From Limnochorda pilosa (GTDB lineage Bacteria > Bacillota > Limnochordia > Limnochordales > Limnochordaceae), in the NCBI RefSeq assembly GCF_001544015.1, contig NZ_AP014924.1, positions 3,162,001 to 3,226,000 of the forward strand: DNA of 64,000 nt. Reading direction: 5' to 3'. Made by a program: the position numbers and the translations under genes. Positions 21,101-25,389 of the stretch are shown in pieces (positions within the stretch are counted from its first letter, which is position 1; the number at the start of each line of letters is the position of its first letter). Under the pieces are notes generated by a model, which was given only the letters and a program-made list of their open reading frames with translations, was not told where the DNA came from and did no database searches.

Positions 21101-23008
21101 CTACTCGACGGTGACGCTCTTGGCGAGGTTGCGGGGCTTGTCGACGTCCAGGCCCCTCCCCTTGGCCACCGCGTAGGCCAGGAGCTGGAGCGGCACTACG
21201 GCCAGCACAGGCCTCAGGAGCGGGTCCACGCCCTGCGGCAGGACGACGCTCATGAAGGCCAGCTCGGTGACGCCCTCGGCCTCGGGTCCCACCACGACCA
21301 GGACCTCGGCGCCGCGCGAGCGGGTCTCCTGCAGGTTCCCTGCCATCTTCACGGCCAGGTCCGGCTGGGTGGCCAGGCCCACCACCGGCACGCCCTCGGT
21401 GATGAGGGAGAGGGTGCCGTGCTTCAGCTCCCCGCCCGCCAGGGCTTCGGCGTGGAGGTAGGAGATCTCCTTCAGCTTCAGCTGGCCTTCCATGGCGACG
21501 GCCAGGTCCCGCCCCCGCCCGATGAAGAAGAGGTCGCGCCGGTCGCGCCAGCGGGTGGCCAGCTCCTGCATGCGGGCCTCCTGGACGGCCAGCATGGCGG
21601 CCACCTGCTCGGGCAGTAAGCGCAGCCCCTCCAGGATCCCGCCCGATCGTTCCGGGCGGAGGACGCCCCGGGCCTGACCGAGTCGCAGGGCCAGGAGGAG
21701 CCCCGCCACCACCTGGGCGGTGAAGGCCTTGGTGGAGGCGACGGCGATCTCGTCACCTGCCCGCAGGGGCAGCACCTGGTCCGCCTCCCGGCCGATGGTG
21801 CTGCCCTCCACGTTCACCACGGCGACCGTGGGCGCCCCGAGCCTCTGCGCCTCCCTCAGGGCGCCCAGGGTGTCGGCGGTCTCACCGGACTGGCTGATCA
21901 CCACCACCAGGCTGCGGGGACCGACGCGGGGCTGGCCGTAGCGGAACTCACTGGCCAACTCGGCCCGGGAGGGAAGGTCCGCGAGCTCATCGGTGTAGCT
22001 TGCGGCCAGCCGGGCCGCATGGTAGGCGGTGCCGCACGCGACGAACCAGACCTCGTCGACGTTCGTGGGGAGCTCGGGCAGCCACCGGAGGCCGGCGACC
22101 TGCGCTTCGGAGGTGCCACGACCGTTCGGCAGGGTCCTGGATCCGTTCCGGGCTCCCCGGCCGAGGGGGGCCCTGCCCGGCGCCCCGGGCCCGCGCAGCG
22201 GCTCCAGGAGCCTCCCGAGCGCCTCGGGCTGCTCGTGGATCTCCTTGAGCATGTAGTCGTCGAAGGCGCCCTTCAGGCTTCGTTCCGCCTGCCACTCGAC
22301 GCGGAAGATGGGCCGTTCCACGCCCCGCCCGTCCAGGGTGCGCACCCGTACCCGATCCGGGTGGATGGAGGCCACCTCGCCGTCCTCCAGAACGAGCATG
22401 TTCCCGGTGAAGGTGCTCAGGGTGGGGATATCGCTGGCCACCCAATTCTCGCCCTTCCCCAGGCCCACCACCAGGGGGCTCTCGTGCCGGGCCGCCACCA
22501 CCGCGTCCGGATCGTGGGCGGCCACCACCGCCACCGCGTACGAGCCTTCCACCCGCTGGAGCGCGGCCCGCACCGCCTCCTCCAGGTCGCCTTCGAAGGC
22601 GTGCTCCACCAGGTGGGCCAGCACCTCGGTGTCCGTCTCGGAGCGGAAGCGGTGCCCCTCGGATTCCAGCCAGCGGCGCAACTCTCCGTGGTTCTCCAGG
22701 ATCCCGTTGTGGACCACGGCGATCCGCTGGTAGCAGTCCAGGTGCGGGTGGGCGTTCCGCTCGCTGGGCTCCCCGTGCGTGGCCCAGCGGGTGTGGCCGA
22801 TCCCCGCCAGCCCGCCGGCCGGGCCTTCCACCGCGACCCGCTCCTTCAGCCGTTCCACCCTCCCCACGACCTTGACGGCCCGGACCACGCCGCCGTCGAG
22901 GATGGCCAGGCCAGCCGAGTCGTACCCCCGGTACTCGAGGCGCTCCAGCCCTCGCAGCAGGACCTCGGCTGTAGGCCGGGGCCCCGTGTACCCGATGATG
23001 CCGCACAT
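21101..23008 (-). CDS. glmS: Glutamine--fructose-6-phosphate aminotransferase (isomerizing)
   Basis: The enzyme makes glucosamine-6-phosphate from fructose-6-phosphate and glutamine, the first step of amino-sugar and cell-wall synthesis. The 635-residue protein has the N-terminal glutaminase domain (MCGIIGY with Cys2 as nucleophile, then HTRWATHG), followed by two SIS sugar-isomerase domains (SQSGETADT, STKAFTAQV) and the C-terminal ending KSVTVE. A linker of about 35 residues near positions 270-305, rich in G, R and P, is longer than usual. GAGGAG lies before the ATG. The leader carries a glmS ribozyme and, unusually, an intrinsic terminator between ribozyme and gene. Confidence 0.97.
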   Translation of the reverse strand: MCGIIGYTGPRPTAEVLLRGLERLEYRGYDSAGLAILDGGVVRAVKVVGRVERLKERVAVEGPAGGLAGIGHTRWATHGEPSERNAHPHLDCYQRIAVVHNGILENHGELRRWLESEGHRFRSETDTEVLAHLVEHAFEGDLEEAVRAALQRVEGSYAVAVVAAHDPDAVVAARHESPLVVGLGKGENWVASDIPTLSTFTGNMLVLEDGEVASIHPDRVRVRTLDGRGVERPIFRVEWQAERSLKGAFDDYMLKEIHEQPEALGRLLEPLRGPGAPGRAPLGRGARNGSRTLPNGRGTSEAQVAGLRWLPELPTNVDEVWFVACGTAYHAARLAASYTDELADLPSRAELASEFRYGQPRVGPRSLVVVISQSGETADTLGALREAQRLGAPTVAVVNVEGSTIGREADQVLPLRAGDEIAVASTKAFTAQVVAGLLLALRLGQARGVLRPERSGGILEGLRLLPEQVAAMLAVQEARMQELATRWRDRRDLFFIGRGRDLAVAMEGQLKLKEISYLHAEALAGGELKHGTLSLITEGVPVVGLATQPDLAVKMAGNLQETRSRGAEVLVVVGPEAEGVTELAFMSVVLPQGVDPLLRPVLAVVPLQLLAYAVAKGRGLDVDKPRNLAKSVTVE

Positions 23009-23096
23009 GGCGCCACACTCCTCGTCGTCTCCCTTGTCGCGCTCCCCGCTTGCCCGCCTGCACCGGACCCTGCCCCGGCGTGGCAGCCTGGGGAGG

Positions 23097-23130
23097 AAAA
23101 CAAAAAGGCGCGTCCGTCACGGACCGCGCC
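23097..23130 (-). terminator. Intrinsic terminator between the glmS ribozyme and glmS
   Basis: On the minus strand a stem of GGCGCGGTCC (23130-23121) and GGACGCGCC (23115-23107) with a 5-base loop is followed by TTTTTGTTTT. This is the strongest intrinsic terminator seen in the window. It stands about 90 nt upstream of the glmS start and about 120 nt downstream of the ribozyme. Either it attenuates glmS or a second promoter lies after it; no clear promoter is visible there. Confidence 0.8.
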
Positions 23131-23252
23131 AGCGGCCACCTGGAGACAGGCAGCCACACCTCCCGGCGCATCTCAAGGACGCGCCGCTCCTGGCTTGTCT
23201 TGCCCCTGTGGGCACGGAACCGCCAGCCTCCCCACCGGAAGGCTGGACCACC
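23131..23252 (-). promoter_or_regulatory. Structured leader segment between ribozyme and terminator
   Basis: This stretch can form several hairpins, including one with CCAGCC/GGCTGG arms and one with TGCCC/GGGCA arms. It also contains a second copy of GGCGCGTCC (minus strand, about 23193-23185) that is perfectly complementary to the 3' arm of the following terminator. Two upstream sequences can thus compete for one terminator arm. No known riboswitch class is recognised. Confidence 0.35.
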
Positions 23253-23396
23253 AAGGCCCCCTTTGTCCCGCCGGTCGCCCGGCGGCTTTGAGGGACCCCT
23301 TACGACCGTGGCCGGCCGAGTGGCACCCGCCGAATGCTTCGATGAACCACTGCCTCGTCCACTCGCCGCCTTCGGGCGCGGCGAGTGCAGGCGCTG
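23253..23396 (-). ncRNA. glmS ribozyme (glucosamine-6-phosphate riboswitch)
   Basis: Conserved blocks of the glmS ribozyme appear in order on the minus strand: AGCGCC at the cleavage site (cleavage expected between A23395 and G23394), GACGAGG, TTCATCGA, TTCGGCGGGTGCC, then CGTAAGG and the terminal element with GACAAAGG. This matches the Bacillus subtilis element in order and spacing. In known members, glucosamine-6-phosphate acts as cofactor for self-cleavage, and the cleaved glmS mRNA is degraded. Its position upstream of glmS on the same strand agrees. Confidence 0.93.
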
Positions 23397-23563
23397 CTTT
23401 TCGGTTGTGGCGAAGTCCGGCTCCTGGCCGGATCAGCTTCCGCCCGACGCTCGCCCCCTTCGCGCGGGGTACCTGGAAACGGCGCCCAGCCCCACGGTTC
23501 CCTCCTTCGCCCCGGGCGGGCGTTCTCCTTCCCGGGCGCGGGAGACCTTCGCAGGCCGCCCTC

Positions 23564-23593
23564 ATTCTATTCGGCGGGCAGGTGAAGGTTCAA
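23564..23593 (-). promoter_or_regulatory. Predicted promoter of the glmS leader
   Basis: On the minus strand TTGAAC (23593-23588) and TAGAAT (23569-23564) are 18 bases apart. Transcription would start near 23556, about 160 nt before the ribozyme cleavage site. The -35 overlaps the stop codon of the upstream HEAT-repeat gene. Confidence 0.55.
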
Positions 23594-25389
23594 GAGCCTT
23601 CCGGTTCCAGGACGGGGAGGGGGTCGGGCAGGCGGTCGTCGGGATCGGGGGGGTCTTCGTGGTCGGGGCCGGTGTAGACGTCGAACTCGTGCACGCCCAC
23701 CACCGCCGGGTCCGGGAGGGGTCCCAGGAGCGGCACGTCCCGCCACTCTCTGAGGATCTCCCCGTGATCTTCCTCCCATCCCGCCAGGTAGACGGCGGCC
23801 TGGCGAGCCAGGAGGGCCCGCTCTCCGTCCAGCGAGCGCCCCGCGGCCGCCAGCGCCTCCAGGGAGGCAGGCCCTCCCAGGCGCACGAGCCCTCTCACCG
23901 CCGCCTGGAAGAGCGGCCCCTCGGATCCCGGCAGGAGCTCCCCGAGGGCAAGCCAGCTCTCGGGCAGGGGGATGCGGCTCACCACGCCGGCGGCGGCGAT
24001 CCGGGCCCCTTCGTCAGCCCGGCGGAGCCAGGGGGAGACCCTCACCAGGGCGGCGGGCCCGAAGCGGGCTGTGGCCGCCTGAGCCGCCTCAGCCAGGGGG
24101 GGATAGGTCGTAAGCGCCAGGAGGCGATCCAGGTCCTGGGCTTCCCCCACCTCCCCCAGGACCTCCAGCGCCCAGGCGTGCCCGTGGAGCACCAGGGAGT
24201 CCTCCAGGAAGGCCCTGAGCGCGGGAAGGGCTTCCTTCCCCAGGCGCTTCAGGCGTACCAGGAGGGCGTAGGGGGCGCGCTCCTGGTCCGCGTCGAGCTG
24301 CCAGACCTTCCGGCCTTCCTCGGTCGCACCCTCCGCCGGGTCCCGCCCGGACCAGGCCCGGTCCAGCCGAACCACCCGTGGGAAGGTCTCGAGGAAGCAC
24401 GCGGCCGCCGTCCGCAGCTCCTCCTCGGCCCAGCGCCGGATCCGCCCGTCGAAGAAGCGGGGCCTCTCGGCCAGGTACAGGATCAGGGAGAGCCGCGCCC
24501 ACGAGAGCTCGTCCACCTCACGCAGCCAGCGGGCCGGATCTCCATCGCCGGCCCCTCCCTCCCAGCCGGGCAGCCCGTGGGCCCTGCCCAGCTCCACCAG
24601 CAGCAGGGAGGCGAGCCAGCCCATGGTCCCCAGCGCTTCCGGGTAGTCGCCGGCACGCCACGCTCTGGCCACGCGCTCCAGCGCAGGGCGGGCCTGGTTC
24701 CTCGCCCCGTCGGGAAACGCCCCGTCGAGGCCCTGGACCCACTCGGGTTCAACGGAGAAGGAGAGCTGGTAGTAGGAGCCTTGCACGTCCGCCAGGAGCC
24801 TGGCGGTCTTGAGGGCCTGGTCGTGCACCCACTCGTCCGGGGCGCTCTCCACCCAACGGAGGATGTCGGGCAGGCGCCGCCTCTGCTTGCGGTAGGCGGC
24901 GCTGCTCCACGCCCCGCCGGCCGTGGGCCAGTCGTCGGCTTCGAAGAACCGGTCGAGCGCCTCGCCCACGCCGGCGACGTCCAGCTCCCCCAGGGCGTAG
25001 AGCGCGATACCGCGCCGGCGGAGCGCGTCGGGGTCGTCGCCGCACTGGGTGGCGTCCAGGAGTCGCCGCGCCGCCTCCTCTTCCCGGCCCGAAGCCACCC
25101 CCCACTCGGCCAGCCCCGACAGGGCGTGCTCCTGCAGCGGCTCGGGGCCGCCGGCCAGGACCTCTTCCAGCAACCCCCGCGCCTCGGGGCGCCCCGAACG
25201 AGCCACGGCCCTCAGGGCCTGGATGCGCACGGCCAGGTTCGAGTCGCCCCGGGCCACCGCCGCCAGTGCCTGCGCCACTTCGGGCAGGTCCGCGTCCGCC
25301 GCCAGCATCCGAGCCGCCTGGGCCCGCGGCCGCCAGGCGGGGGAACGGAGGCGACCGAGATGGTGGGCAAGGACGGCCGGGGCAGTCAT
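23590..25389 (-). CDS. HEAT-repeat protein of unknown function
   Basis: The 599-residue soluble protein is almost entirely helical, with repeated units such as AVRIQALRAVARSGRPEARGLLEEVL near the start and AARQAVYLAGWEEDHGEILREWRDV-like units near the end, typical of HEAT or PBS-lyase-like repeats. These form scaffolds for protein contacts, so a catalytic role is not indicated. The middle (about residues 170-300) lacks clear repeats and carries many Trp. The tail is short and rich in Asp and Pro. Its ATG overlaps the stop of the upstream aminotransferase gene by 4 nt, so the two are translationally coupled. Confidence 0.75.
   Translation of the reverse strand: MTAPAVLAHHLGRLRSPAWRPRAQAARMLAADADLPEVAQALAAVARGDSNLAVRIQALRAVARSGRPEARGLLEEVLAGGPEPLQEHALSGLAEWGVASGREEEAARRLLDATQCGDDPDALRRRGIALYALGELDVAGVGEALDRFFEADDWPTAGGAWSSAAYRKQRRRLPDILRWVESAPDEWVHDQALKTARLLADVQGSYYQLSFSVEPEWVQGLDGAFPDGARNQARPALERVARAWRAGDYPEALGTMGWLASLLLVELGRAHGLPGWEGGAGDGDPARWLREVDELSWARLSLILYLAERPRFFDGRIRRWAEEELRTAAACFLETFPRVVRLDRAWSGRDPAEGATEEGRKVWQLDADQERAPYALLVRLKRLGKEALPALRAFLEDSLVLHGHAWALEVLGEVGEAQDLDRLLALTTYPPLAEAAQAATARFGPAALVRVSPWLRRADEGARIAAAGVVSRIPLPESWLALGELLPGSEGPLFQAAVRGLVRLGGPASLEALAAAGRSLDGERALLARQAAVYLAGWEEDHGEILREWRDVPLLGPLPDPAVVGVHEFDVYTGPDHEDPPDPDDRLPDPLPVLEPEGS

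Follow-up and report, generated by a model that had tools for sequence, protein, structure and literature searches.

An intrinsic terminator between the glmS ribozyme and an extra glmS gene of Limnochorda pilosa

The DNA analysed here, called the window, is a 64,000-nucleotide stretch of the Limnochorda pilosa genome (contig NZ_AP014924.1, positions 3,162,001 to 3,226,000). On its minus strand lies a copy of the cell-wall-sugar gene glmS, with a composite leader. Read in the direction of transcription, the leader consists of a glmS ribozyme, a 113-nt spacer, a terminator made up of a hairpin and a U-tract, and a further 88 nt before the glmS start codon. This puts 235 nt between the end of the ribozyme and the start of glmS. 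The gene upstream of the leader is on the same strand as glmS and ends at 23590. Positions are given in Table 1.

Table 1. Features of the glmS leader and gene, in window coordinates
Feature	Coordinates	Strand	Remark
glmS, 635 aa	21101..23008	-	SIS + glutamine amidotransferase (GATase) domains
Sigma-70-like promoter candidate TTGAAC-18-TAGAAT, 5' of ribozyme	23564..23593	-	consensus match only
glmS ribozyme RF00234, full length	23244..23406	-	model match
Spacer hairpin CCAGCC...GGCTGG, at ribozyme end	23223..23246	-	
Spacer hairpin H1, -15.4 kcal/mol; sequesters proposed antiterminator segment	23164..23186	-	
GGCGCGTCC, 9-nt perfect complement of terminator 3' arm GGACGCGCC	23177..23185	-	
Spacer hairpin H2, -17.8 kcal/mol	23132..23157	-	
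Terminator hairpin GGCGCGGTCCGTGACGGACGCGCC, -16.0 kcal/mol	23107..23130	-	
Terminator 3' arm GGACGCGCC	23107..23115	-	
Terminator U-tract TTTTTGTTTT	23097..23106	-	
Candidate leader ORF, GTG start after AAAGGGGG, UGA stop in terminator loop	23117..23251	-	position only
Shorter variant of candidate leader ORF	TTG start at 23176	-	position only

The glmS ribozyme is a textbook riboswitch that works by cleavage, and not via a terminator. Its Rfam model has a cut-off of 37 bits; the match here scores 107.3 bits and covers model positions 1-167. It is found in the leader of a gene with both SIS and GATase domains, which is where a glmS ribozyme belongs. In a scan of 22980-23640 that admitted matches up to E 10, no other Rfam element, including the T-box, scored above its own cut-off. 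The idea of a T-box in the spacer, or of some other leader RNA already described, was rejected on these grounds, as the non-glmS matches stay far below their cut-offs. Elsewhere in the same genome there is a Moco (molybdenum/tungsten) riboswitch, RF01055, at L160:1148-1338 (39.8 bits).

The initial annotation described a strong intrinsic terminator between ribozyme and glmS, and this is indeed what lies there. The stem is GC, 10 bp long with one bulged G, and the tract that follows it on the coding strand has nine T in ten. The opposite strand of the terminator has no T-run. It therefore acts in one direction only, towards glmS, and is not bidirectional. A consensus scan of a 4-kb stretch returned one terminator-like site on the minus strand, and a 163-nt leader region folds better than all 200 of 200 shuffles (z -3.7).

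The GC content of the window is 72%, and hairpins form easily in such DNA. This gives some room to the idea that in vivo the terminator matters little, being a pause site or a neutral hairpin. Yet a GC stem with a tail of nine T in ten is an uncommon find in this genome, which makes that idea very improbable. Strict terminator criteria, applied to 464 kb of the genome (including a 400-kb sample), picked out 12 candidates. Only about three are canonical, meaning a GC stem plus an unbroken T-run, and the one in the glmS leader is among them. Because canonical terminators are this rare in a genome of about 72% GC, the glmS-leader terminator is not a product of chance. The same scarcity in the sequence suggests that the Limnochorda pilosa genome makes rare use of intrinsic termination. 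The other canonical terminators in the 464-kb sample, L172:13682-13720 and L160:11893-11909, are both directly 3' of predicted genes.

Whether transcripts reach this terminator depends on where they start. Between 22000 and 26000 there is a sole sigma-70-like site, a 9/12 consensus match where 0.0 would be expected by chance, and it is located 5' of the ribozyme. The sigma-70 consensus scan found no promoter-like site between the terminator and glmS (23097-23008). Transcripts should therefore cross the terminator, and going by the sequence it is probably co-transcribed with the ribozyme in one leader transcript. The leader then has its terminator between promoter and gene, as an attenuator does, with the promoter identified by consensus only.

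This bears on an alternative raised in the initial annotation, in which the design is bidirectional and glmS has a promoter beyond the terminator. In that case the terminator would finish off a transcript from upstream or from the leader, and glmS would be free of ribozyme control. The upstream gene is on the same strand and ends at 23590, so its read-through would need stopping. Against this, the promoter scan left 23097-23008 empty and gave its one site 5' of the ribozyme. In addition, the ribozyme is intact, and in most sampled genomes it is directly 5' of glmS. Together these observations make a separate glmS promoter very unlikely.

The earlier observation of a second segment perfectly complementary to the 3' arm of the terminator also holds, for 9 nt. 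When the spacer is shuffled with its dinucleotides preserved, 16 of 5000 sequences contain a complement of 9 nt or longer (~0.3%). Among window pieces as long as the spacer, 14 of 2242 have one. The excess over chance is significant but modest, and the segment was chosen post hoc. The duplex energy of segment and 3' arm has a z of -3.5 compared to shuffles.

Stepwise folding follows the RNA as it would grow. The 9-nt segment pairs first with its downstream neighbour in H1, before the terminator is made. H2 comes next, and the terminator hairpin is present once its own 3' arm has been transcribed. Before that, the 5' arm of the terminator is predicted to pair transiently with CCGUGCC (23217-23211). 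Alternative-structure folding of the leader had been put forward as a check on the competing arms. When the antiterminator is forced, the structure loses 7.3 kcal/mol of stability, and the pair probability is 6e-5. With the segment locked in H1 and the antiterminator disfavoured, a switch would need a factor that opens H1. According to these models the 9-nt segment alone is unlikely to modulate the terminator, and a specific antitermination switch is possible, not favoured. Of the proposal that the leader attenuates transcription, one part stands, namely a terminator in the leader that is probably co-transcribed with the ribozyme. The competing-arm switch, in the form proposed, is not supported, given the early H1 and the energy penalty.

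Such a switch would make the leader a regulated attenuator, where the segment pairs with the 3' arm and stops termination after some factor opens H1. The perfect complement and its scarcity in shuffles speak for this, as does the duplex energy. Among 14 leaders with terminators, only one other (L109) has a duplex energy as extreme as that of the Limnochorda pilosa leader (L001). H1 however forms earlier and sequesters the segment, and the forced structure is much the worse one. The comparison of arms also involved about 28 arm-by-locus tests, and with that many an outlier or two counts for little. A regulated attenuator of this kind is unlikely. Upstream complementarity to the terminator arms is not generally enriched in the strict terminator leaders, in which only L001 and L109 stand out. 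A shared antiterminator signal across these leaders was therefore rejected.

There is another way in which the terminator could be masked, and that is by translation. A ribosome on the candidate leader ORF, starting at the GTG or the TTG, would run up to the UGA in the loop and so prevent termination. The ORF does have a Shine-Dalgarno-like stretch, and its stop is within the hairpin. That stretch however belongs to the conserved 3' end of the ribozyme, and frames like this are common because stop codons are sparse in GC-rich sequence. Coupling to translation is thus highly improbable.

Leaders sampled across Bacillota allow for a comparison. Genome searches delivered 128 ribozyme loci, and 115 leaders with a glmS start within 300 nt were kept. 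The median distance from ribozyme to glmS is 66 nt (117 leaders). Under a strict criterion 14 of the 115 leaders, or about 1/8, contain a strong terminator, a rate that is approximate because the sample is weighted to high-scoring ribozymes and includes related genomes. Twenty rounds of shuffling gave a mean of 1.8 and a maximum of 4. Leaders of at least 100 nt have a strong terminator in 13 of 36 cases. With a looser criterion the count is 38 of 126 leaders, compared to 8-18 in shuffles. The starting assumption was that ribozyme-controlled leaders normally go straight into glmS. This is right for most sampled leaders, but not for the 14 with a strong terminator where 1.8 would be expected.

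Terminator stems are kept within clades that have several species. In one clade the stem has changed on both sides, and reads TATGCC/GGCATA in two leaders (L083, L100) versus TGTGCC/GGCACA in another (L124). The arrangement of ribozyme and terminator recurs in Bacillota. The terminators in related leaders may have independent origins and differing reasons.

Closer to home, no homologous leader was found in the 61 genomes searched, and there are no further copies elsewhere in the same genome. A same-genus assembly (86% complete) has no glmS in it. In order-mates the spacer from ribozyme to glmS measures 74-104 nt and glmS has no terminator with a U-tract ahead of it, so at the level of the order this feature is absent. 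A scan for GlmS in named genomes produced 18 loci in Clostridia and Bacilli, with proteins that are 39-46% identical.

The order-mates also have glmS ribozymes in another place. In four of them (L003, L005, L006 and L008, family f2) a glmS ribozyme is upstream of a fructose-1,6-bisphosphatase gene (PF01950, E 1.7e-174 for L006 and 1.3e-179 for L008). Two of these genomes carry another ribozyme, located at glmS (L017, L018). In L003 and L006 there is a strong hairpin plus U-tract directly 3' of the ribozyme.

The Limnochorda pilosa genome has a second full-length glmS, at L183:4155-5987, which is 50% identical to the window copy. It starts 28 nt past a glmM-like (phosphoglucosamine-mutase-like) gene, a name that comes from the sequence as read and from position, not from a family search. 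No ribozyme, terminator or promoter-like site was found in front of it. The window glmS is therefore one of two copies, and the more tightly leashed one. With a ribozyme-free copy behind glmM, a strong brake on the window copy would be affordable.

This second copy is peculiar to Limnochorda pilosa within the genomes compared. Among 40 others, 39 had matches at E <= 1e-60, and each of those has one glmS locus. The 13 other strict-terminator genomes also have a single locus at that threshold, at the ribozyme. A ribozyme-free second glmS as the general reason for terminators was rejected on this account. If glmS is essential in those 13 genomes, their terminators must then be leaky or regulated.

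The best explanation, to which we give a probability of about 0.62, is that the leader of this ribozyme-controlled extra glmS holds an intrinsic-terminator attenuator. It would be on by default, leaky, and stacked on the ribozyme. Transcription would start upstream of the ribozyme. RNA polymerase would cross the ribozyme and the spacer with its local hairpins, and by default then run into the strong terminator. A large share of transcripts would end there, some 90 nt before glmS. Only read-through transcripts would get to glmS, and these are predicted to be still subject to ribozyme cleavage triggered by GlcN6P, and to the decay that follows. The terminator would in this way be a second brake, at the level of transcription, on top of the ribozyme. 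That termination takes place in vivo, and that it is leaky, is what we infer from this layout.

A more elaborate version is conceivable. The leader would then have two layers, decay by way of the ribozyme and a regulated attenuator that uses the spacer hairpins and the 9-nt segment to answer a second signal, and this would recur in long-spacer Bacillota glmS leaders. We regard this as a tentative idea, on the doubtful side. Should glmS-ribozyme leaders also terminate transcription in about 1/8 of Bacillota, then one part of how glmS is controlled has so far been missed. This would matter for the reading of ribozyme-based antibiotic leads.

Terminators after glmS aptamers are already mentioned in a 2026 paper (PMC13273304). 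That work identifies them with ARNold, reports no covarying overlap of aptamer and terminator, and judges such control not to be common. It also restricts the post-aptamer length to 30-100 nt, and a leader like the one from Limnochorda pilosa would therefore be left out. What is alike is that here too there is no significant pairing of terminator and ribozyme beyond the spacer segment. For glmS the paper cites RF00083, which is GlmZ_SraJ; the glmS ribozyme is RF00234. In the literature searched, no paper devoted to terminators in glmS leaders came up.

Like other RF00234 leaders, the Limnochorda pilosa one places a full-length ribozyme 5' of glmS, on the same strand and in the same order. In most of the sampled leaders, however, glmS follows after a short stretch (median 66 nt) that has no strong terminator, where here there are 235 nt and a terminator. 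The glmS element is described as working by cleavage, in contrast to other riboswitch classes (PMC2258182). Trp-type leaders and terminator-type riboswitches make for a second comparison. Unlike in those systems, the competing pair here is energetically disfavoured, and no sensor has been identified for it. What the leader does share with them is a terminator before the gene, together with a segment that could potentially compete with it.
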